From assembly GCA_003210775.1 (NCBI GenBank), contig QCUI01000002.1, positions 1 through 64,000 on the forward strand: 64,000 nt of DNA. The letters run 5' to 3'. Positions within the stretch are counted from its first letter, which is position 1. The number at the start of each line of letters is the position of its first letter. The notes under the pieces were generated by a model, which saw only the letters and a program-made list of their open reading frames with translations, searched no databases and had not been told where the DNA came from. Position numbers and translations under genes: made by a program. The stretch is from Synechococcus sp. AG-679-A04 (GTDB lineage: Bacteria > Cyanobacteriota > Cyanobacteriia > PCC-6307 > Cyanobiaceae). This document shows positions 1 to 12,009 of this stretch, piece by piece.

Positions 1-140
1 AAAGTATTGGTGGCTGGAATTTGTTTGTCTCCAACCTGATTATAAAATCCAGTTTCAATACAGGTAGAAGTCAATCCCTGCTGGTTATCAACACACTCCT
101 TTGCTTTCTTCGCGAGTGCTTTACCAGTTAGTTTTTCCAT
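1..140 (-). CDS. Partial cyAbrB-like protein (N-terminal part MEKLTGKALAKKAKECVDNQQGLTSTCIETGFYNQ..., runs off the window start)
   Basis: Reverse-complement reading from CAT at 138-140; 'LTGxxLxxKxKE' start resembles the cyanobacterial AbrB N-terminal region and the neighbouring gene. Confidence 0.6.
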   Translation of the reverse strand, partial: MEKLTGKALAKKAKECVDNQQGLTSTCIETGFYNQVGDKQIPATNT

Positions 141-179
141 GATGTGGTAGTTGAATAATGGTGGCTAGAAGTGAATGAA

Positions 180-623
180 TCAGTCGTCTTTGGGTTCACA
201 AGGATCAATCCTGATACTTCCATCAGTGATCTTGATTTTGAATGTATCTCCAACAGAGTATCCATGAGCACGAAAATAACCTGCTCCAACCACAAGGGAT
301 CCATTCTTCATTACCTTCGTCTTGTAAGGCAGGGTTCTACCAACACCACCAGTTCTTTGGGGTTTCGCCTTCTGCATATTGGGTAGTGATAACCCTTGTG
401 CTTCGATCAATGCCAAGTAGAAACCACTCGGATTTGTAACCTTCTTTCCATTCTTGGTAGTTACATAACCTGCCTTTTCCAAAAGCACATCCTTAGGTGC
501 CTCTGAGTTCTCCTTCACACAGGCCAACAGGTCATCACCAGTGAGTGGTTTCGCCTCATTCTCATCAGAGGCAACAACCGCCTTAATAAGAGAATCCAAA
601 TCAAAGTCTGCTTCCTTAGCCAT
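180..623 (-). CDS. cyAbrB-like transcriptional regulator (AbrB family, cyanobacterial type)
   Basis: ORF 180..674, likely start MAKEADFD at 623; LTGDDLLACVKE...AGYVTTKNGKKVTNPSGFYLALIEAQGL...GRTLPYKTKVMKNGSLVVGAGYFRAHGYSVGDTFKIKI matches the cyAbrB pattern. Confidence 0.75.
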   Translation of the reverse strand: MAKEADFDLDSLIKAVVASDENEAKPLTGDDLLACVKENSEAPKDVLLEKAGYVTTKNGKKVTNPSGFYLALIEAQGLSLPNMQKAKPQRTGGVGRTLPYKTKVMKNGSLVVGAGYFRAHGYSVGDTFKIKITDGSIRIDPCEPKDD

Positions 624-670
624 AACAAAGGTGTAAGTGCCCTTATTATAACGCAGTGGCTCTGGTCTTA

Positions 671-1510
671 TCAATCAGGCCTTAGCACATCTCCATTTGG
701 ATAAGTTTGTCCTCCAAGGCAGTTAAGGATAGATCGAACCGTTACTTGATATTCACCACATACACTCTTAGCAAAACCATTCTTGGTACCGCTCCATTTG
801 CCAAATCGTTCCCTTATCTCATTCACATGCCCATTCAACTTAGAGTTGCTTGTGGTTCTACCTTGATCAGGCAACAACATCCAACAAGTGTTCTCAGGTG
901 TGTAATCTCCATCATTGTTGATGCGCTCAATGGTGTGATGAGGTGAAGGCCTCTTACCTCTATCAGTAATGAAGTTAAGGATTCCATCCTCACCTAACCA
1001 TCTATCACAAACTTTGATTCCTTTCCCACCCCAATACTCATAATCCTCATAGTTGGGGTTGTAACACCTACCCTTCATACCATTGAGAATTCGATATTCA
1101 ATTGTTTTGGATAATCCATGAGTTCGCCTCCTATTTCCTAATTCTTCTCGTTGAAGGCAACCACAACTTTGAGAGTGCCCTGATAAGAGTGCATAAGCAC
1201 CAATCTTTACTTCATTGCCACATTCACAGATACAACTCCATTGGGATCTGCCAGCTGGTGTGTTCTCAACTCTTGCTTGAACTGTTAATCTTCCAAACTT
1301 CTCGCCACACAAATCAGGAACACCACGAGCACATTGCTGGCATTGTGTACTCCTTGCTCTCCTGAGCAGTGATCCCTTTACCTCAGCCTCATTGCCACAA
1401 TCACATCTCACTTTCCATCTTGTACCTGGATCAGTTTTAGATGATGGAACACGATAGAGAACGTTCCATTTGCCAAAACTCTGCCCACTTAGATCATAAA
1501 ACTTTCCCAC
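671..1510 (-). CDS. Phage-type HNH endonuclease-like protein with two N-terminal zinc-ribbon-like repeats
   Basis: CDCG...CQQC and CECG...CGC repeats, then WGGKGIKVCDRW...IERINNDGDYTPENTCWM typical of cyanophage/cyanobacterial HNH-like proteins. Confidence 0.65.
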   Translation of the reverse strand: MGKFYDLSGQSFGKWNVLYRVPSSKTDPGTRWKVRCDCGNEAEVKGSLLRRARSTQCQQCARGVPDLCGEKFGRLTVQARVENTPAGRSQWSCICECGNEVKIGAYALLSGHSQSCGCLQREELGNRRRTHGLSKTIEYRILNGMKGRCYNPNYEDYEYWGGKGIKVCDRWLGEDGILNFITDRGKRPSPHHTIERINNDGDYTPENTCWMLLPDQGRTTSNSKLNGHVNEIRERFGKWSGTKNGFAKSVCGEYQVTVRSILNCLGGQTYPNGDVLRPD

Positions 1511-1675
1511 TTACAATCAAACATTATTATTCCTCTCTTCTTGTAACAGGATTCCCCTTATTCGTTAACTGATAATTCGTCTTAGCTAATACCTTTCAGT
1601 TCTGATAGTTACACTACAAGCATAACATTTAAAAGGAGGCAAGTTAAATATTTAAAGGACCCAATAACACATACA

Positions 1676-1828
1676 ATGGACATAGATGAGTTAGAGGAAA
1701 TGGTAGCTCTAATGAGGGAAGGTAAGTTACCAATGGATCCAAAGATCATTGGTAAACTGAGTCAGAAGCAACAGGAAAGGAGAGATATATTCCAAGATGA
1801 TTTCCTGAGCATTATTAGAAACCTCTAA
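1676..1828 (+). CDS. Small hypothetical protein, 50 aa (MDIDELEEMVALMREGKLPMDPKIIGKLSQKQQERRDIFQDDFLSIIRNL), phage-like
   Basis: ATG-to-TAA ORF read directly from sequence, below the ORF-track length cutoff; charged phage-like composition. Confidence 0.45.
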   Translation: MDIDELEEMVALMREGKLPMDPKIIGKLSQKQQERRDIFQDDFLSIIRNL

Positions 1829-1898
1829 TACACACCTACAATCCCCTGCAAGAGGTTTATAACAGGAGCAAGGCATAAGTTATTCCTAAGCACAAAAG

Positions 1899-1932
1899 AA
1901 CCCTCCAGTGAGAAGCAAAACACTGAAGGGTT
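1899..1932. terminator. Hairpin AACCCTCCAGTG/CACTGAAGGGTT (12-bp stem, one mismatch)
   Basis: Inverted repeat read directly; T-rich run only on the minus-strand side, so orientation is uncertain. Confidence 0.35.
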
Positions 1933-1981
1933 GAGTAATCCAATGCATAAAACATGCACAGGTATTTATTGTTGTATCAAG

Positions 1982-2066
1982 TACCTGGCACGATTGAGCA
2001 CAGTAATTGTTAGTTAAAGACACCTTGAAGCATTTTTGCTATAACTGTCAATGTCTCCTGATAACC
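1982..2066 (+). promoter_or_regulatory. 85-nt conserved upstream cassette, copy 1 (TACCTGGCACGATTGAGCACAGTAATTG...TATAAC...)
   Basis: Aligns without gaps to the regions upstream of the other three precursor ATGs. Confidence 0.6.
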
Positions 2067-2330
2067 ATGTCCCTAGAACAACTCAAAGCCTTCCTAGAAA
2101 AGGTCAAAGTAGACACCAGTCTTCAGGAAAAGCTCAAAGCATCTGCTGATGCTGATGCAGTAGTTGCGATTGCAAAAGAAGCTGGGTTTAGTTTTTCTGC
2201 TGACGACCTAACTAATCCAAAGCTCTCTGACGAGGAGCTGGAAGGTGTGGCAGGTGGACACTGCATTTTACATCCATCCATCACTGACACCCCCTCCATA
2301 ATACTGCCCATCATCATTTGCCCACCATAA
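2067..2330 (+). CDS. Nif11-leader RiPP (prochlorosin/ProcA-type) precursor 1; core after GG: HCILHPSITDTPSIILPIIICPP
   Basis: MSLEQLKAFLEKVKVDTSLQEKLK... leader, LSDEELEGVAGG double-Gly site, Cys and Ser/Thr-containing core; ORF track starts at 2007 but the conserved ATG is 2067. Confidence 0.85.
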   Translation: MSLEQLKAFLEKVKVDTSLQEKLKASADADAVVAIAKEAGFSFSADDLTNPKLSDEELEGVAGGHCILHPSITDTPSIILPIIICPP

Positions 2331-2445
2331 CTGCCACTAACAACTCAGTTACTCACCAACAGCTTACACGCTCGAATAACCTCTGAAATTGACAGGGCTT
2401 TTTATTGCTTCAATCACCCCAAAAAGACCATCAATAAGCCTTCAA

Positions 2446-2530
2446 TACCTGACACGATTTAGCTCAGTAAGCATTAGATAAAGACATTGCAACAGGCCGC
2501 TGCTATTACTGCAGAACAGACCTCATACCC
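2446..2530 (+). promoter_or_regulatory. 85-nt conserved upstream cassette, copy 2
   Basis: TACCTGACACGATTTAGCTCAGTAAGC...AAAGACA...CTATTAC, same spacing to ATG as the other copies. Confidence 0.6.
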
Positions 2531-2758
2531 ATGTCCCTAGAACAACTCAAAGCCTTCCTGGAAAAGGTCAAAGCAGACACCAGTCTTCAGGAGAAACTAA
2601 AGGCAGCGAAGACTCCTGAAGACGTTGTGGGCATCGCTAAGGATCACGGCCATGAATTCACTGCTGATAAGATCACTGGGATGATGGAACTCAGCGAAGA
2701 AGAGCTAGATGGCGTTGCTGGAGGAGGCAACTGCGGGCCTGCTGCTATGTCTTACTAG
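2531..2758 (+). CDS. Nif11-leader RiPP (prochlorosin/ProcA-type) precursor 2; core after GG: GNCGPAAMSY
   Basis: MSLEQLKAFLEKVKADTSLQEKLKAAKTPEDVVGIAKDHGHEFTADK...LSEEELDGVAGG leader. Confidence 0.85.
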   Translation: MSLEQLKAFLEKVKADTSLQEKLKAAKTPEDVVGIAKDHGHEFTADKITGMMELSEEELDGVAGGGNCGPAAMSY

Positions 2759-2805
2759 TGGGAAGAGGCAATTCCCTCTTCGCAGCTACTGATTTGTAAG
2801 ACTGC

Positions 2806-2831
2806 AACCCCTTCGATAGCAGGGGTTTTTT
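2806..2831 (+). terminator. Rho-independent terminator after precursor 2
   Basis: AACCCCT-TCGATAGC-AGGGGTT followed by a T-run. Confidence 0.7.
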
Positions 2832-2873
2832 ATTACTTCAACAGTCTGACCAATCCCATAAATCAGCCTCCAA

Positions 2874-2958
2874 TACCTGGCACGATTTAGCGCAGTAATT
2901 AATAGCCAAAGACACTGCAGCAGACCGTTGCTATAAGTGCTGAAAAGACCTGATACCC
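2874..2958 (+). promoter_or_regulatory. 85-nt conserved upstream cassette, copy 3
   Basis: TACCTGGCACGATTTAGCGCAGTAATT...AAAGACA...GCTATAAG, same spacing to ATG. Confidence 0.6.
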
Positions 2959-3096
2959 ATGTCCCTAGAACAACTCAAGGCATTCCTCGCCAAGGTCAAA
3001 GGCGATTCCAATCTTCAGATGAAACTAAAAGCAACTAAGACACCTGAAGAGCTTATTGATATGGCTAGGGAAAATGATTATGAATTAGAGAATTGA
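2959..3096 (+). pseudogene. Truncated Nif11-leader precursor 3, 5' part (MSLEQLKAFLAKVKGDSNLQMKLKATKTPEELIDMARENDYELEN*)
   Basis: Reading frame from the conserved ATG stops at TGA 3094-3096 before the GG site; 3' remnant found about 1.1 kb downstream. Confidence 0.75.
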
Positions 3097-4175
3097 TCTA
3101 CACTAATTATGAGGAATCAATATCCTGGGTGGTTAATGAAATCTTTGATCAAACAGATCAACGATTATGGGATCCTGTTCTAGAGATGGCAAGGAAAATA
3201 CAACTTGATGAGACCTGTCAGAAATACGAATGCTTGCTTGAATTTCATCATGATAATCACTTGGCCGTAGATGTATCTTTCGGTATTCTATCTTCGGCAG
3301 CACTTCTGCCCAAAGCGTTTATGCCAATCTGGTGGGACTTGTATCTGGAACGATGTGATCAAGTCGACCCCGTCAAAACTCTATCAGGGGGGATTAATGC
3401 AAGCAATGCTCGTACCCAATATAGAAAGCGAAATACCCCATTCAGTTGTGCGTTGCCTGACTATCATTATCTTGAATTTGACCTTTTAAAAAGCCCAATT
3501 TGTCTGGGAGGTGTATTTCAGAGTCTTGACATCGTTGAGACTGAGGTGCAGCCAAGGATGCTGAGCGACGTCCTTGACTATTGCATTGCTTTTCAAGAGA
3601 CCCCTAAACGAACGAATGAATGCCAGCAGATGTTGCAGGATATCTTTGAATCTCTTGGCTGCCCATATTGGATTGGTCTGATGGTTGGGAGAGAGGACAT
3701 GGTGAAACTAGTTTTTCAATCTTCTGCATCACTTGAAGATATTCAACCTAGCTTCTGGCCATGGTTCTCATCAGATTTTAGGACTTCATATGAAAATGCG
3801 ATGCAATATCTTTCTTCTCTCGAGAACACCAGTATACGCTGCTGTATTGATTTATGCTTATCAAAGCCATCGACCCATCCAAGACTTTGTTTTGAAATCT
3901 TCCCAGCCAGCCAGGCAAAAGAGTCCTCTAGCTGGTCTGTCCTGACCTCGCTAAAAAAGCACTTTAACTTGAAAGATGATTTAATCCTGAAGATACGCGA
4001 TTTATACATTAATCTCCCGAGAGGAGTCAAAAAAACCCCTTTCAGTCATATTTACTCTTGTCCGCAATTGCCTTTCAACAATATTGCGGCTGTTTTAAGT
4101 CACTACAAAATTTGTCTTGAAAAAGATCAGCCACTAAAGCTTAAGACTTATACTCGTGTCGTTTCTGAATTGTAG
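3093..4175 (+). CDS. Unassigned 360-codon protein inserted inside precursor 3; possible divergent member of a conserved cyanobacterial hypothetical family
   Basis: Long ORF opening at TTG 3093 overlapping the leader TGA (TTGA). C-terminal PRLCFEIFP... and HYKICLEKDQPLKLKTYTRV resemble a remembered cyanobacterial family ending HIK(I/L)VYQPxxPLEAKAYL; recollection only. Confidence 0.6.
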   Translation: MIYTNYEESISWVVNEIFDQTDQRLWDPVLEMARKIQLDETCQKYECLLEFHHDNHLAVDVSFGILSSAALLPKAFMPIWWDLYLERCDQVDPVKTLSGGINASNARTQYRKRNTPFSCALPDYHYLEFDLLKSPICLGGVFQSLDIVETEVQPRMLSDVLDYCIAFQETPKRTNECQQMLQDIFESLGCPYWIGLMVGREDMVKLVFQSSASLEDIQPSFWPWFSSDFRTSYENAMQYLSSLENTSIRCCIDLCLSKPSTHPRLCFEIFPASQAKESSSWSVLTSLKKHFNLKDDLILKIRDLYINLPRGVKKTPFSHIYSCPQLPFNNIAAVLSHYKICLEKDQPLKLKTYTRVVSEL

Positions 4176-4262
4176 ACCGGTGAAATCATAAAGCTCCGTT
4201 AAGAAGAGTTAGAGCAAGTTTCTGGTGGTGGCACTGCTGGGTTCAAATGCTCGGAAGTTTGA
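4176..4262 (+). pseudogene. 3' remnant of precursor 3: ...TGEIIKLR*EELEQVSGGGTAGFKCSEV*
   Basis: Frame-3 reading gives the leader C-terminus (EELEQVSGG) plus a short Cys/Ser core directly after the 360-codon ORF; one in-frame TAA at 4200-4202. Confidence 0.7.
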
Positions 4263-4329
4263 TCAACGTCAATGAATGACTGTCAAATCTGCAGAGAAAA
4301 CCACAATAAGCCCATAAAGCAGCCTTCAA

Positions 4330-4414
4330 TACCTGGAACGATTGAGCACAGTAATTGTTAGTTAAAGACACCTTGAAGCATTTTTGCTATAACTGTCAAT
4401 GTCTCCTGATAACC
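4330..4414 (+). promoter_or_regulatory. 85-nt conserved upstream cassette, copy 4 (differs from copy 1 at only one visible position)
   Basis: TACCTGGAACGATTGAGCACAGTAATTG... identical to copy 1 except C>A. Confidence 0.6.
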
Positions 4415-4681
4415 ATGTCCCTAGAACAACTCAAAGCCTTCCTCGCCAAAGTCAAAGGCGACTCCAGCCTTCAGGAGAAACTAAAAACGGCAAAGTCACC
4501 TGAAGAGGTCATGGGCATCGCTGAAGAATGCGGCCACGCATTTAGCGCTGATGACATCAAAAAAGTAGAAGTTTCAGAAAGAGAGCTTGAAAACATTGCT
4601 GGAGGAGTATATGGAAATTCTATATTTGGAAACTGCAACGAGACAAAGGAGGACAGTCTTTGCAGTGAATGCAGCCTGTAA
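4415..4681 (+). CDS. Nif11-leader RiPP (prochlorosin/ProcA-type) precursor 4; core after GG: VYGNSIFGNCNETKEDSLCSECSL
   Basis: MSLEQLKAFLAKVKGDSSLQEKLKTAKSPEEVMGIAEECGHAFSADD...VSERELENIAGG leader; Cys/Ser/Thr-rich core; ORF track starts at 4355 but the conserved ATG is 4415. Confidence 0.85.
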   Translation: MSLEQLKAFLAKVKGDSSLQEKLKTAKSPEEVMGIAEECGHAFSADDIKKVEVSERELENIAGGVYGNSIFGNCNETKEDSLCSECSL

Positions 4682-4726
4682 TTAACGATAGAGGAAAGTC
4701 TATTCCGGAAAATTCCGCAAATTGCA

Positions 4727-4930
4727 TCAAGTACCTCTTAGTTCCTTAGCCAGTAGATACCTCATCAACTGAGAGAACTTAATTTGACTCTCATCACAGT
4801 AGAGCTTTACTTCCTTATAGAACTCAGGATCCATCTTGAAGGAAACAATTTTATCTTGGGTAGGTCGAGGAATCCATTGAGCAGGTGTGGTTCCCCTTCT
4901 TACAGCGTCTCTTCCTGTGGATTTATGCAT
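4727..4930 (-). CDS. Small ribbon-helix-helix-like DNA-binding protein
   Basis: DKIVSFKMDPEFYKEVKLYCDESQIKFSQLMRYLLAKELRG resembles Arc/CopG-type RHH. Confidence 0.5.
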   Translation of the reverse strand: MHKSTGRDAVRRGTTPAQWIPRPTQDKIVSFKMDPEFYKEVKLYCDESQIKFSQLMRYLLAKELRGT

Positions 4931-5275
4931 TTTTGATCTTCTTCAACACACTGGTGATTGTATTTAGATTATTACTTGGGTATTACACAAGCTGGGAATT
5001 GGCTAATACTTGAAAACATCAAAAAGAATGGGTATGCGTGCGTTAGTGTTCAAGGAAGGTTCTTATAAATGTGAGATCTTACTGTCGTCTTAGATTGCAT
5101 CATAAAAGAAATCAAGTCTCATAAAATTTCCTTATCTATCACGGGAATTCTCAGAACTTATCGAACTCTCAAATAAATATCTTATGACTGAGTAAGTCAT
5201 GAGGATGGATTGATCCATGGTGGTTCTACCCCCATCCTCTTCAAATAAATACCTTTGGTTACTACCGGAACCGTG

Positions 5276-5308
5276 AGAAAGGGACCTTTGCCTATCAGGT
5301 CCCTTTCT
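5276..5308. terminator. Strong hairpin AGAAAGGGACC-N11-GGTCCCTTTCT
   Basis: 11-bp perfect inverted repeat with flanking T-rich/A-rich ends. Confidence 0.6.
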
Positions 5309-5354
5309 TGTGTCTAATCCAGATTCAGCAGGAACTCATTGACTTCCTCATCAC

Positions 5355-5513
5355 TCATATCACAGGAACATCCTCACTCCTGTAGTGAATCAACATGCCT
5401 TTGATGTGAGGTTGCTTGTCATCAAGTTCCCAACCCAACAATGTCTCCAGTTCTTGGCCACTAAGTTTTGACCATTGAGATACAAGAGCCTGTCTTACTA
5501 ACTCACGCTTCAT
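5355..5513 (-). CDS. Small hypothetical protein, 52 aa (MKRELVRQALVSQWSKLSGQELETLLGWELDDKQPHIKGMLIHYRSEDVPVI)
   Basis: Open frame on the minus strand below the ORF-track cutoff; adjacent to the integrase. Confidence 0.4.
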   Translation of the reverse strand: MKRELVRQALVSQWSKLSGQELETLLGWELDDKQPHIKGMLIHYRSEDVPVI

Positions 5514-5587
5514 TCAGTCAGATCAATATTCATCAACATAACGCCAGTAGCATCAGTGAATTCAATGAGTTCGCAATTCGTCGCCTC

Positions 5588-6832
5588 TCATATCACAGGA
5601 ACAAACTCTTCTCGTGATTGCTCAGTTTGGTTCCTCTTGATCAGTTGATCAGAGTTGATCTTGAGAATCACATCCTGATATCGCTCCTCAATCACACGAG
5701 TTGAGTTTCCACATTGCTGAGCTATCAAGCTAAGTGGTGAGCCCTGAACAATTCGATCAGAGATATACACAGATCGAGTTGAATACAAAGTGAACTCATC
5801 ACCATAACCCAAGTCATCCTTCATCTGATTGAACAGCTTATTAAAGCTCTGAGATGTTTGTCTCTGACGATTGAGGATATTAGCAAACACATAATCCTCT
5901 GGATTGAGCTTCCATCCCTTTGACTCATAGATTGCCTTCATTAGTACTAAGGATGCTGATTCAAATAAGATGTCTCTGGGTCCAGTCTTAGATACTGGTA
6001 TGTGTACATCATTCACTATCCCCTCTAATTGGTTAGGGAACAGGGGGTTATATCCACTCACTCGAACGTGCTTCCATTGGACATAAGTGAACTCAGATGT
6101 CCTACATCCACATTGCATCTGAAGGGAGAAGTAGAGAGTGAAGATCTTCCATCTCAATCTCTGATAGGGGGAGACGTTGTCATCATTAGACTTCCATTCC
6201 AAGTAATCCATCATCTCTATCACCATCTCATCGGTGTAAGCAGAGTTTGGTTTCACGCCACCTTTCACCTTTCGAAGTGGTGGGATAAGCCAAATCTCTC
6301 CCTTCCAATTTTGTTTCACCTTCTGACACCAATACAAGAATTCCTTGATGTGTCGAATCTCAGTATTGATAGTTTCCTGTTCAAATCCAAAGTTGTCCTT
6401 TCTCCAGGTTCCATAGTCTCTGAATGTTTGTCCATTCACCTCTGAAACCTTGGTCACCTTTCTCGACACCAGGTAAGGAAGCATTCCCTTATAGATGGAT
6501 CGATCTTTGCCCTTTCGTGTACCCTCTGCTATCTCCTCGCGAATCACTCTGGAAGTTTGTTCATTCATAAACTCATCAGCAAGCTTGGTAATGAACACCT
6601 CAACTTTGTGACTAAAGAGATCCGGTTCCTTAATCACATCTGCATACACAACCCCAAACCTTGTCATTGCTTCAGCAAGATCAGGTGTATGAAGTGACCT
6701 GTGAATCTGCCGATACTTGGGTTTCCTCAGGGTGACCCGAAGTTCCAAATCCTTCCGTTCAGAGAACTGAATGATGTGGCAGTCAGGAATACCTGTTTCT
6801 GTCTTGGTGACGATGACTCCCTTGGCACCCAT
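5588..6832 (-). CDS. Phage-type tyrosine recombinase/integrase
   Basis: Box I region QMQCGCRTSEFTYVQW, SKTGPRDI (K beta-hairpin), box II YSTRSVYISDR...GNSTRVIEERYQDVIL with terminal Tyr. Confidence 0.75.
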   Translation of the reverse strand: MGAKGVIVTKTETGIPDCHIIQFSERKDLELRVTLRKPKYRQIHRSLHTPDLAEAMTRFGVVYADVIKEPDLFSHKVEVFITKLADEFMNEQTSRVIREEIAEGTRKGKDRSIYKGMLPYLVSRKVTKVSEVNGQTFRDYGTWRKDNFGFEQETINTEIRHIKEFLYWCQKVKQNWKGEIWLIPPLRKVKGGVKPNSAYTDEMVIEMMDYLEWKSNDDNVSPYQRLRWKIFTLYFSLQMQCGCRTSEFTYVQWKHVRVSGYNPLFPNQLEGIVNDVHIPVSKTGPRDILFESASLVLMKAIYESKGWKLNPEDYVFANILNRQRQTSQSFNKLFNQMKDDLGYGDEFTLYSTRSVYISDRIVQGSPLSLIAQQCGNSTRVIEERYQDVILKINSDQLIKRNQTEQSREEFVPVI

Positions 6833-6952
6833 GAGACAAGAAACCTCCCTTTGAAGGCATTCTAACCGAGGTATTGATCAGAAATCCGCCAAAACCCTTG
6901 ACTGTCACAAGGGTAATGAATACATCAAGTAATTTCATAACAGCCACTCTCA

Positions 6953-6995
6953 GTTCAATAAAAAAGGAGGCAAATTGCCTCCTTTTTTATTGAAC
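6953..6995. terminator. 43-nt perfect palindrome, bidirectional intrinsic terminator at the island/core junction
   Basis: GTTCAATAAAAAAGGAGGCAA-A-TTGCCTCCTTTTTTATTGAAC; 21-bp perfect arms. Confidence 0.8.
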
Positions 6996-7029
6996 GCTGC
7001 TTTTGAACTCTTCATTCGAACTGAACAAT

Positions 7030-7482
7030 TCAGTGCGATTCAACACTATCGGTGAATTCCTGAAACGCCTTCTTCAAACGCTCAACAGGCGTTTCTGATG
7101 GAGGACATTCCTGATTAGTGGAACGGGTATAGGCCTGCAGAATGCGTGCTTCCGGTTCCAACAATGCCGCAACTGCTGCCTTGAGCATCACAACATTGCT
7201 CTGGGGCGTTAATCCAGCCAGATAGGAATGCAGGGACCACGGTCCTGAGTCATCCTGCTTTTCTAGCCTCAGAGGCCTAATCAATTGATAAGCCCGATCG
7301 CCGTCAGAGTCGGTGGTCTGCCTGAGACGCGCTACCAGCATCACACCGCTGGTGAGCAGCACTAGTCGAATCGATCCCTCGCTCAACAAAGGCAGAAAAG
7401 GGACTGATTCATCCACGTGAGCCAGAGAGGAGCCGGCGGATGGATGGCTCAGCTTCACTCCGTTGACTACAGGACCAGGCAT
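7030..7482 (-). CDS. Conserved cyanobacterial hypothetical protein
   Basis: 150-aa ORF adjacent to hemC, ending near the terminator. Confidence 0.5.
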   Translation of the reverse strand: MPGPVVNGVKLSHPSAGSSLAHVDESVPFLPLLSEGSIRLVLLTSGVMLVARLRQTTDSDGDRAYQLIRPLRLEKQDDSGPWSLHSYLAGLTPQSNVVMLKAAVAALLEPEARILQAYTRSTNQECPPSETPVERLKKAFQEFTDSVESH

Positions 7483-7646
7483 TGCGACCCTCGAGAACGA
7501 CCAGATCGTAAAGCTGCTCGCAATGAAGAGTGAGGCCTGCTTCTGAGCTGGAGAGTCAAAAAGCCTTCATGGGCCTGCATTCTGTGAAATCTTGAACGAA
7601 ACTGGGCCTTCGACTCCGTAGGCTGAGTGGCTGTTTCAACGTGCCC

Positions 7647-8600
7647 ATGGCTCTCGAGCAACTGCGTATCGCCTCCCGCCGCAGCCAGCTGGCCATGGTG
7701 CAGACCAACTGGGTGAAAGCCGAACTGGAGAAAGCCCATCCAGGACTGGCGATCTCGGTGGAGGCCATGGCCACGAAGGGCGACAAAATTCTGGACGTTG
7801 CTCTGGCAAAAATCGGCGATAAGGGCCTATTTACAAAGGAACTAGAGGCCCAGATGCTGGTGGGTCGAGCAGAGATCGCCGTGCACTCACTCAAGGATCT
7901 GCCCACCAACCTGCCCGACGGCCTGATGCTCGGTTGCATTACCGAGCGGGAGGATCCCGCGGATGCCTTGGTGGTGAACAGCAAAAACGCTGAATACACC
8001 CTTGAGACGTTGCCAGAGGGATCCGTCGTCGGCACCAGCTCGCTGCGGCGACTCGCTCAGCTGCGTTACCACTTCCCCCACCTGCAGTTCAAAGACGTTC
8101 GCGGCAACGTCATCACCCGGCTGGAAAAATTGGATGCTGGCGGATATGACTGCCTGATCCTCGCAGCAGCAGGCCTGAGCCGACTTGGATTCGGAGATCG
8201 AATCCATCAGATCATTCCTGGCCACATTTCACTTCATGCCGTGGGACAGGGAGCCCTCGGAATCGAATGTGTCACCGACAACCAGGATGTTCTGAACATC
8301 ATTCAAGTTCTGGAGCATGCTCCAACCGCTGGACGATGCCTGGCAGAACGGGCTTTCCTCCGGGAACTAGAGGGTGGATGCCAGGTCCCTATCGGGGTTA
8401 ACAGCCGTATTGACGGTCATGAAATGGTTCTTACTGGGATGGTGGCCAGCCTTGATGGCAAGCAAATGATCCGTGATGAACGCCGCGGACCTCTGAACAA
8501 TCCAGAAGATGTGGGATTAAAACTCGCAGCTGACTTGAAATCCCGTGGTGCGGGCGAGATCCTTCAGGAGATCTTCGCCTCGGTTCGTCCCGAAGCCTGA
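7647..8600 (+). CDS. hemC: Hydroxymethylbilane synthase (porphobilinogen deaminase)
   Basis: [14 protein letters not shown]..., [25 protein letters not shown]. Confidence 0.95.
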
Positions 8601-8602
8601 CT

Positions 8603-9235
8603 ATGTCACTGCTGCACACAGCGGTCGGAATTTTCACCATTTCGAATCCGATCGGCAATCTGCCGATCTATTTGTCATTCACAAACGGCAACAAGCGCCA
8701 GGACAGGGCGATCGCACGCAGCAGCGCTTTCACCATGGTGATTGCCCTGCTTCTCGCCACTTGGCTTGGCAATGATCTGCTCGGCTTCTTTGGAATCGGC
8801 AGACCAGCCTTTCAGGTAGCAGGTGGATTGATCGTGGTTCTGATCGGCCTTTCGATGCTGCGCTCCGAACCTTCGAAGGTTCACCACGATCCGAAGTCCT
8901 TAGAACGCGACCAGAACTCTTCGGTGAAGGGAATCGTGCCTCTGGGCATTCCCCTGCTGGCTGGTCCAGGCACCCTCACGGTGGTGATCGCGGATCCACA
9001 CGCCGCCAGCACGGGAGGGAAGCTGATGCTCAGCCTGGTTGTGCTCGTCATGAGTTTGCTCGTTTATCTGATTTTCAATGCTGGTGAGTTGCTCTCATCC
9101 AGAATCAGTGAATCTGCTTTGCAGGTGCTCACGAAAATCATGGGCTTGATCCTCACCGCCATTGCAGTTCAGATGTTGTTCACAGGTTTCAGTGCAGGAT
9201 TCCCGGTGCTTGGGGGAGTAGGCCTCACCGGGTGA
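8603..9235 (+). CDS. MarC-family integral membrane protein
   Basis: FTISNPIGNLPIYLSFT...; IPLLAGPGTLTVVI. Confidence 0.85.
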   Translation: MSLLHTAVGIFTISNPIGNLPIYLSFTNGNKRQDRAIARSSAFTMVIALLLATWLGNDLLGFFGIGRPAFQVAGGLIVVLIGLSMLRSEPSKVHHDPKSLERDQNSSVKGIVPLGIPLLAGPGTLTVVIADPHAASTGGKLMLSLVVLVMSLLVYLIFNAGELLSSRISESALQVLTKIMGLILTAIAVQMLFTGFSAGFPVLGGVGLTG

Positions 9236-9824
9236 TCATCACCGGCGTGCCCACGTCCACCAGTTCGTAGAGCTTCTGAACGTGGGCATTGAGCATGCGT
9301 ACGCAGCCATTCGACACCGCCGCGCGGATTTTCACCCATTGAGGCCAGGGGGTTCCATGAATTCCGAATTGGTTGGGTCCCTGCTGCAGAAAGCCGATCC
9401 AGCGATGGCCAAGTGGGCTAGCAGGCCCGGTGACCGGATGGATCTGGCCTGATTTTGTGCTTTCGTACTGCGGATTAACAAGCTTGGTCTGGACCCGAAA
9501 CACACCCGTCGGCGTTGGAGTCTTGGGATCACCAATCGCCACCGGCCAGCGCCCGATCGACTGACCAGCGCGGATCACACTGATGCGTCGCTGCTTGAGA
9601 TCGAGATGAATACTGGTTTCAGCATTCACGGGATGCACTTTTGCTGAAGCAAACAACGGTGCCTGTGACTGAGGCGAAGCATGCGCAGGCACCGATGCAG
9701 CCAGAGCTAAGGACACAACTCCCAGGGCCGCCAGGGAGGAACAACCAACGCACTTGAGACGCATTACCGGACGACCAAGACTCACTGGTCTCAACGTATC
9801 CATCGGCCGGGGTAAAAACCGCAC
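9225..9824 (-). CDS. L,D-transpeptidase (YkuD family)
   Basis: FGIHGTPWP...VSNGCVRMLNAHVQKLYELVDVGTPV catalytic motif. Confidence 0.85.
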   Translation of the reverse strand: MRFLPRPMDTLRPVSLGRPVMRLKCVGCSSLAALGVVSLALAASVPAHASPQSQAPLFASAKVHPVNAETSIHLDLKQRRISVIRAGQSIGRWPVAIGDPKTPTPTGVFRVQTKLVNPQYESTKSGQIHPVTGPASPLGHRWIGFLQQGPNQFGIHGTPWPQWVKIRAAVSNGCVRMLNAHVQKLYELVDVGTPVMITR

Positions 9825-9918
9825 ACCAGTGGAGGACTTTCTGAAGAAACGAATCCACCTCCCAGCAGAGCAGCATCCAGGCTTTTGCTACCAAGGGAAA
9901 AAACTTCTGGTTTGTGCG

Positions 9919-10896
9919 ATGCCGGAGCAACTCAAGTGGACCGAAGTTGAAGCAAAACTCGTGCTCCAAGCCATCAAAAACGTTGGAACAGCCGGCGGAG
10001 TGTTAACGCTGCCGCAGATCACCCTGGAGATGATGGGGGCGATCCAGACCCACGTTTTGCATTCCAGGATCGAGCTGCAAGACCTTGAGATCATCCTTCC
10101 CACGCACTATCCCGATCTGATCAGCTCCGGCATCAAACGGGACCAGCTGATTCAGATCCTGGTGCTGATTCCTTACGTGGACATGTCAGTGGACCCGCGC
10201 ATGGTGGGTGTGGTGGATGATTTCGCCGCTTGCCTGAACGTCAATCCAGAGACACTCAAAGACCTGCATCTCGTGAGGGACAACCACCTCAGGCGTTTGC
10301 TCCTGAATTACGGGCGGCGAAGCATGGGTGAGTTCCTGATGCTCGACACACCATCCAAATTCATTCGTGGAGTGATCAGCTCCATTCATCAGGCCATCGG
10401 CGACCCCGGTGTTGCGCGCCGCTATCAGTCTTTGGAATCCTTCCCGGAAGGAAGCCTTGGTCACAGCTTCTTTCATTGGTACCGCGATCGTCAGTGGGCC
10501 CTGCCCGGCGAACACAAGAGCACTTCAGAACTGCTGATCAACCATGACTGCTGCCACATCCTGGGGGGCTTCAACACCGACACTCAGGGGGAGATGAATG
10601 TGGCGGCGTTTCAGGCCGGTTTATTCACTGATGGCTTCGGGTTTGAATCACTGCTGGAGGTAATGCTCGATTTCCATCTCGGCAAATCCTTCAGCACCAC
10701 CACCGGACTGATCGCCCCAGAGACAGGCCAGTTCATTCCTGATGCGGCCATGGCCGGTTATGAAAAGGGGCTGGCCTGCAACATCAACCTGATCCAGGAT
10801 CTTGACTTCTGGGCTGTCGCCGATCAACAGGTGACCGATCTCAGGATCCAGTACACCATTCCTCCCACCGCAGGAGCGATTCTGCTCAAGCCCTGA
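9919..10896 (+). CDS. Coq4-like domain protein, with a possible TerB-like N-terminal region
   Basis: HDCCHILGGFNTDTQGE fits the Coq4 HDxxHx11E metal motif; helical DQLIQILVLIPYVDMSVDPRMVGVVDDFAACLNVN resembles TerB-like domains. Confidence 0.55.
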   Translation: MPEQLKWTEVEAKLVLQAIKNVGTAGGVLTLPQITLEMMGAIQTHVLHSRIELQDLEIILPTHYPDLISSGIKRDQLIQILVLIPYVDMSVDPRMVGVVDDFAACLNVNPETLKDLHLVRDNHLRRLLLNYGRRSMGEFLMLDTPSKFIRGVISSIHQAIGDPGVARRYQSLESFPEGSLGHSFFHWYRDRQWALPGEHKSTSELLINHDCCHILGGFNTDTQGEMNVAAFQAGLFTDGFGFESLLEVMLDFHLGKSFSTTTGLIAPETGQFIPDAAMAGYEKGLACNINLIQDLDFWAVADQQVTDLRIQYTIPPTAGAILLKP

Positions 10897-10905
10897 ATTG
10901 CGGCT

Positions 10906-11397
10906 TCAAGACAGCACCGCAAAGGCAAACCAGAGCAGAAAGACAGCAAAGGCAACGTTGATGAACTGGATTCCTGCCCTGAGACGCTGGGGGTTTCGAC
11001 CTGAATCGAACAGATGCAGCACCGCTGCTTGCAGCATGTAGATGCCGAACACCAGGATGAGGGAACCAAGAGCCATGGTTCCCCAGCCAAGAAACGAGGC
11101 GATCAAAGCCACCAGCCCCCAGGCGAGATTGGCGAATCCCACCTCAAGCTGGAAGTCGTTGCGCTTGCCGAGATCCCAGCCCATGCGCACCGCATCACTG
11201 CGATGAAACACAGCATGGCGAACGAACGACAACAGCCCCACACCACCGACTGACCAGAGAGCAACCCACTGAACTGCAGAGTGAATTTGACCTGCAGACA
11301 GAGCATTGAATCCAAAGAAGAGACCGATGCCACCCACGAGACAGGTGACTTGCATCAGAATTTTGGAGATCCGGGGATGGGTGGGCAGCATCATCAC
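10906..11397 (-). CDS. Conserved membrane protein, unknown function
   Basis: Multiple hydrophobic segments. Confidence 0.5.
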   Translation of the reverse strand: MMMLPTHPRISKILMQVTCLVGGIGLFFGFNALSAGQIHSAVQWVALWSVGGVGLLSFVRHAVFHRSDAVRMGWDLGKRNDFQLEVGFANLAWGLVALIASFLGWGTMALGSLILVFGIYMLQAAVLHLFDSGRNPQRLRAGIQFINVAFAVFLLWFAFAVLS

Positions 11398-11421
11398 GTT
11401 GAACGCGGAGCAACTGGTGAA

Positions 11422-12009
11422 TTAATCGACAAGTTTGGGGTCAATCTCAGCCAGGTAACGAGCCTCACAGGTCTTGATGATCTCGATGGCTTTATCCGTA
11501 CCGAAAAAGCCGTTCACGGTGCAAGTTCCTGGCTTCTTGAGATCCTTGTAATGCTCCCAGTAATACGTGGTTTCCTTTTTCCATTGCCCACCAAGATCCT
11601 CAAAGCTCTTGATGTGATCGACACGCTTGTCATCGGCAAGCACCGCGATGACCTTGTCATCAACCTCACCACCATCATCGAACGTCATGATGCCGATGAT
11701 GCGAGCTTCAACAATTGAACCTGGAATCAGAGGCTCGGTGACATTCACAATCTCAATATCGAGCGGGTCACCGTCCTCATCCCAGGTCCGAGGAATGCAG
11801 CCGTAAGCGAAGGGATAGGCCAGCGAGGAATAACCGACCCGGTCCAGCTTCAGGTGACCCGTCTCGGTGATCAGCTCGTACTTGTTGATCGTGTTGGAGT
11901 TGAGCTCCACGATCGTGTTCAGACGAAACTCGGATTCGTCAGCAAAGGCCGGCAACACGTGCAGCAGGTTCGGCATGCTGCGGCTCGGAGCCTGGTCGAG
12001 ATTGGCCAT
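11422..12009 (-). CDS. ppa: Inorganic pyrophosphatase
   Basis: NKYELITETGHLKLDRV, YGCIPRTWDEDGDPLDIEIV, MTFDDGGEVDDKVIAV. Confidence 0.93.
   Translation of the reverse strand: MANLDQAPSRSMPNLLHVLPAFADESEFRLNTIVELNSNTINKYELITETGHLKLDRVGYSSLAYPFAYGCIPRTWDEDGDPLDIEIVNVTEPLIPGSIVEARIIGIMTFDDGGEVDDKVIAVLADDKRVDHIKSFEDLGGQWKKETTYYWEHYKDLKKPGTCTVNGFFGTDKAIEIIKTCEARYLAEIDPKLVD

Follow-up and report, generated by a model that had tools for sequence, protein, structure and literature searches.

A Nif11-leader precursor split by an intact gene of a Nif11/NHLP-associated enzyme family in Synechococcus sp. AG-679-A04

Prochlorosins are usually attributed to one promiscuous LanM. The locus described here lies in the window, i.e. 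the stretch of 64,000 nt that was analysed (contig QCUI01000002.1, positions 1 to 64,000, forward strand). It resembles the prochlorosin (ProcA/SyncA) arrays of marine Synechococcus and Prochlorococcus in its Nif11 leaders, its GG sites and its short variable cores, and further in having tandem arrays at dispersed genomic sites (43 Nif11 matches) and a single ProcM-like LanM (DUF4135, contig C24, open frame of 1129 aa). With many precursors and one LanM elsewhere in the genome, array and genome represent a prochlorosin-type system, in which promiscuity of the LanM is presumed by analogy. In a 2023 survey of prochlorosin islands YcaO, SagB-like, recombinase and transposase genes are described, and prenyl- terms are absent (PMC10783134). 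In contrast to the known arrays, the leader of one precursor in the window contains a complete gene for a putative tailoring enzyme. This rearrangement is unusual, but it falls within a known kind of natural-product island.

The ABBA prenyltransferase fold is a ten-strand barrel. LynF, TruF and PatF (TIGR04445, PF19156) act on cyanobactins and are leader-independent. The ABBA-type prenyltransferase MppC attaches a geranyl group to Trp in a lanthipeptide with a Nif11 leader, and it depends on this leader being present in cis and not in trans (PMC12715784). The gene for MppC is located in the mpp cluster of Moorena beside a Nif11-leader precursor with a core Trp, a LanM and a Trp halogenase (PMC12715784). 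Published YcaO-TfuA RiPP clusters also carry an annotated 'indole prenyltransferase' (PMC8120280).

Anatomy of the split precursor

The split gene is the third of four Nif11 genes that form an array of direct repeats (repeat families of 157 nt and 281 nt). The features of the array are:

2067..2330, + strand: Nif11 precursor 1, core HCILHPSITDTPSIILPIIICPP (Nif11 E=1.5e-19, TIGR03798 E=6e-26)
2531..2758, + strand: Nif11 precursor 2, core GNCGPAAMSY (Nif11 E=6e-20)
2806..2827, + strand: hairpin resembling a terminator, located between precursors 2 and 3 (consensus match only)
2874..2958, + strand: upstream region of precursor 3, putative promoter/5'UTR (157-nt direct-repeat family D2, 73-92%; alignment)
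2959..3096, + strand: 5' half of Nif11 precursor 3, truncated leader (ORF list, Nif11 match)
3091..4175, + strand: probable inserted block, exactly one gene (ORF 3093-4175, 360 aa; blastn boundaries, junctions, dN/dS)
4176..4262, + strand: 3' half of precursor 3 with leader end, GG and core GTAGFKCSEV (repeats D3, alignment)
4415..4681, + strand: Nif11 precursor 4, core VYGNSIFGNCNETKEDSLCSECSL (ORF list, Nif11 and NCBIfam matches)

The frame at 2959-3096 encodes 45 aa (MSLEQLKAFLAKVKGDSNLQ...YELEN) and matches Pfam Nif11 with E=1.4e-15 over model positions 1-42 of 48. Its 57.8 bits, against a PF07862 cut-off of 23.8, identify it as a Nif11 leader domain. This half of the leader, which includes TPEELIDMARENDYEL, ends with a stop at codon 46 (3094-3096) and has no GG site. 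The 360-codon ORF (3093-4175, +) with its TTG start follows directly. Behind it, 4176-4262 translates as TGEIIKLR, one in-frame TAA, EELEQVSGGGTAGFKCSEV and a final stop; TGEIIKL..EELEQVSGGGTAGFKCSEV constitutes the 3' half, with leader end, GG site and the core GTAGFKCSEV. Precursor 3 really is split, and the earlier note was right to describe a ProcA-type precursor divided by a 360-codon ORF. The two leader pieces do not overlap and leave a gap of 2-3 residues; joined, they give 62 residues up to GG compared with 64-65 in the neighbouring precursors, and both abut the ORF without a spacer. The GG-site DNA of the 3' piece resembles that of the three intact precursors (31-nt repeat family D3, 71-77%; alignment). 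A query with the joined peptide aligns to the 3' piece alone (4164-4259), which is expected because the piece is part of the query.

The peptide product of precursor 3 is lost. GG site and core share no open frame with the leader, from which they are separated by 1.08 kb and the TAA, and the 3' remnant lacks a usable start codon, its sole GTG meeting a stop after 2 codons. The 5' side is different in that the leader stop TGA (3094-3096) overlaps the TTG start of the enzyme (3093-3095) in the sequence TTGA, which suggests translational coupling of the enzyme to the truncated leader. The region at 2874..2958 is common to all four precursors (D2 repeat family and alignment); a promoter scan found no site on the + strand. 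Presumably, the truncated leader supplies the promoter and the coupled translation start of the enzyme.

Several other genes surround the array. A 414-aa protein at 5588-6832 (-), ~0.9 kb from the array, has a weak phage-integrase match (PF00589, E=2.7e-5) that misses the curated cut-off and may mark an integration module of the island; no tRNA was found within positions 1-12000 of the window. Upstream of the array, at the contig start, an AbrB-like regulator is encoded at 180-674 (-; PF14250, E=8e-14). The 279-aa protein at 671-1510 (-) has no Pfam match; its first part is Cys-rich, and it appears HNH-endonuclease-like by eye.

The enzyme family and its putative function

Whole-genome searches revealed full-length homologues with 68-69% identity in two genomes of the same genus, G277 and G295. 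These copies are free-standing, comprise 360 codons with a TTG start as in the window copy and have no leader upstream. All three copies have the same length and no internal stops. Their pairwise dN/dS is 0.18-0.21, and the window branch has a value of ~0.23 (three-point split of the pairwise values). The ORF in the window is intact and, with a dN/dS close to 0.2, under purifying selection.

Searches of Pfam, NCBIfam, PHROGs and PDB sequences gave no match to the ORF product. More distant homologues occur at further loci of the same taxonomic family, and two more were found by profile search; scans of genome contigs and viral contigs revealed no relatives. Close relatives were found on neither phages nor plasmids; distant ones on plasmids exist. 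In 12 of 12 genomes the nearest Nif11 gene lies 82 bp to 5.2 kb from the family member. Fisher's test, which takes into account how many Nif11 genes each genome has, yields p=1.9e-16 for this adjacency, a value that serves as a guide only since the test assumes random positions and precursors cluster. Among relatives from the same family, the nearest precursor is usually convergent rather than co-directional. In Nostocales, Pseudanabaena and Azospirillum, the neighbourhoods of distant relatives contain LanM, Nif11/NHLP-like precursors, radical SAM, Trp halogenase, 2OG oxygenase and YcaO/TfuA. Thus, the inserted gene is a member of a family of enzymes associated with Nif11/NHLP RiPP precursors.

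Some of these loci are worth describing individually. The Pseudanabaena relative is found with LanM and Nif11, and its precursor ends in KW. On a plasmid of Azospirillum sp. B510 (locus L113, 762-6730, -) a run of NHLP-type precursors lies beside the relative, TfuA and LanM; seven of the eight precursor frames listed end in Trp (..KW, ..SW, ..PW), and the locus is a candidate Trp-modified lanthipeptide cluster. In genome G387 (locus L107, 9471-19902) the relative is accompanied by radical SAM, TfuA and YcaO and, as in mpp, flanked by a Trp halogenase and a Nif11-like precursor, here ending in QW.

It is very probable, on the basis of sequence and gene context, that the ORF product is some form of RiPP tailoring enzyme guided by a leader. 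For its chemistry we slightly favour a leader-guided, MppC-like prenyltransferase of Trp or Tyr. This assignment is by analogy and draws on the Trp/Tyr-rich partners, the barrel-like repeats, the MppC precedent and the 'indole prenyltransferase' of YcaO-TfuA clusters. As for an MppC-like prenyltransferase, a leader-bearing RiPP precursor is a neighbour of the gene in all 12 genomes. In a post hoc tally made by eye, the partner cores at about a dozen loci contain Trp or Tyr with a single exception, compared with 14 of the 26 cores (~54%) of the window's genome. The family alignments display five strand-turn-strand-like segments with invariant Glu, Lys and K-x-Y and a nearly invariant Arg, a pattern which we take to resemble the ABBA prenyltransferase layout. 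Judged from these alignments, a five-repeat barrel layout may be common to the ORF product and LynF/TruF/PatF, from which it differs in lacking significant sequence or profile similarity. The likeness to MppC is one of gene context, and the window copy differs in lying inside a precursor gene instead of a dedicated cluster.

Homology to the LynF family was considered and is unsupported, as local and global hhalign comparisons scored no better than the reversed control. The TIGR04445 and PF19156 models of cyanobactin prenyltransferases did not match the ORF product. An AlphaFold prediction from its single sequence had a pLDDT of 34.8.

A Nif11-associated tailoring enzyme that is not a prenyltransferase, for instance a transferase of another fold or a peptide-binding partner, is a serious candidate, if somewhat short of probable. 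It would explain why similarity to known prenyltransferases is undetectable in sequence and profile. However, five repeats with conserved Glu, Arg, Lys and K-x-Y recall the ABBA barrel pattern, and the Trp/Tyr-rich partners offer the same kind of substrate that MppC uses.

Origin of the split

Compared with the two free-standing copies, the window DNA is homologous by blastn at 3091-4175 (79%) and 3089-4175 (77%). The flanks have no blastn homology to the loci in G277 and G295 apart from a general leader similarity (G277), and the junctions of the insert are sharp at the base level. Since the homology is confined to the ORF and excludes the flanks, the foreign block is one gene from start to stop codon. 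Synteny between the G277 and G295 loci extends over a large part of 19 kb; one block of 2.8 kb comprises the gene with its flanks and, ~460 bp downstream, a convergent Nif11 precursor. The core of this precursor is CWMNTCWGYG(Q/P)GTAAAPDWN (CWMNTCWGYGQGTAAAPDWN in G277); no homologue of this partner was found in the window's genome, the assembly of which is 74% complete. ORF-exact boundaries of homology and complementary leader halves argue that a Nif11 precursor received a gene by insertion and that its 3' part decayed afterwards; this is the best explanation, and we consider the insertion likely.

The earlier note had arrived at insertion followed by decay as well. Insertion and a decayed 3' part fit the boundaries and the complementary halves, but decay does not extend to the enzyme gene: the nonsense codon lies in the 3' remnant. 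The insert is a single ORF with exact ends; that note had called the insertion of one non-transposase-like ORF at this site unusual. It is, however, no unrelated passenger. Because its family is tied to Nif11/NHLP precursors, the insertion stays within one biosynthetic system. The uninterrupted precursor-3 allele that was to be looked for did not turn up among 31 genomes of the same genus (best whole-length match 62%). Hence, we infer the empty site.

A different role had been suggested for the hexamer TGAATT, which is indeed present twice, at 3081-3086 and 4166-4171. The right copy lies within the last codons of the ORF (..SEL and stop), and its counterpart closes both free-standing homologues (GGAATTGTAG and AGAGTTGTAG). 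It is therefore insert sequence, namely the enzyme's own conserved 3' end, and a target-site duplication is ruled out. The two halves do fall into the same frame when the interval between both copies is removed, but this follows from the chosen cut. TGAATT represents microhomology at best. GAATT is present in the leader, at the enzyme start and at the enzyme end. Short-homology recombination is a possible route of insertion, and so is a larger insertion that was later trimmed by deletions.

Alternatively, two distinct precursors may once have flanked the enzyme gene and been truncated separately, one at the 3' end and one at the 5' end with loss of its promoter, so that the fragments would be unrelated. 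Such an origin appears unlikely. The enzyme genes of the relatives do adjoin Nif11 genes, and arrays of this type are rich in duplicated and broken precursors (G295 has at least 150 and G277 has 116 Nif11 matches, several precursors with internal stops). However, the nearest precursor of the relatives is usually not co-directional, and the fragments are complementary within ~3 codons, without overlap and without spacer on either side of the enzyme gene. Two independent deletions would rarely produce both complementarity and loss of spacers. Since two truncations need complementary breaks and zero spacer, a single insertion is simpler.

Still less probable is that selection maintains the two genes as a unit because the truncated leader peptide has a function of its own, for example as a decoy or in-trans guide for the enzyme. 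In favour of this, the leader fragment has an open frame until it reaches the overlapping stop, with most of its Nif11 domain preserved. Yet the split arrangement was seen in only one of the genomes searched, the free-standing homologues manage without a leader, and MppC needs its leader in cis (PMC12715784). An assembly or amplification chimera of unrelated fragments, conceivable in a draft of 107 contigs with the split site 3 kb from a contig start, is highly improbable because the ORF is bordered on either side by half of one leader, the array extends further in both directions, the 3' remnant is decayed, and there is no obvious source, with no second copy of the 360-codon gene in the window's genome and the closest copies found differing by ~30% in protein.

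Proposed scenario and implications

Assuming a single insertion, we propose that a complete Nif11/NHLP-associated tailoring gene entered precursor 3 from start to stop codon at leader codons 43-46. The truncated precursor would then provide promoter, 5'UTR and ribosome entry for the enzyme, and the leader stop overlapping the TTG start (TTGA) would couple translation. Like MppC, the enzyme may bind the Nif11 leader of other precursors, pre-cyclised by the ProcM-like LanM, and prenylate Trp or Tyr of the core. We lean towards this scenario as a whole, i.e. insertion, leader capture and MppC-like prenylation, on grounds of sequence and analogy. A wider generalisation is doubtful: uncatalogued RiPP tailoring genes might shuttle between precursor loci as bare ORFs, with a leader captured as promoter and coupled-start module for an enzyme that modifies sibling precursors.

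The locus points to an enzyme family that has no Pfam or NCBIfam model, is linked to Nif11/NHLP precursors from picocyanobacteria to Azospirillum and has Trp/Tyr-rich partners. As a putative ORF-exact insertion with the decaying remnant still in place, it offers an example of how such islands rearrange. If prochlorosins are prenylated, a second modification, a lipid, would be added to them.
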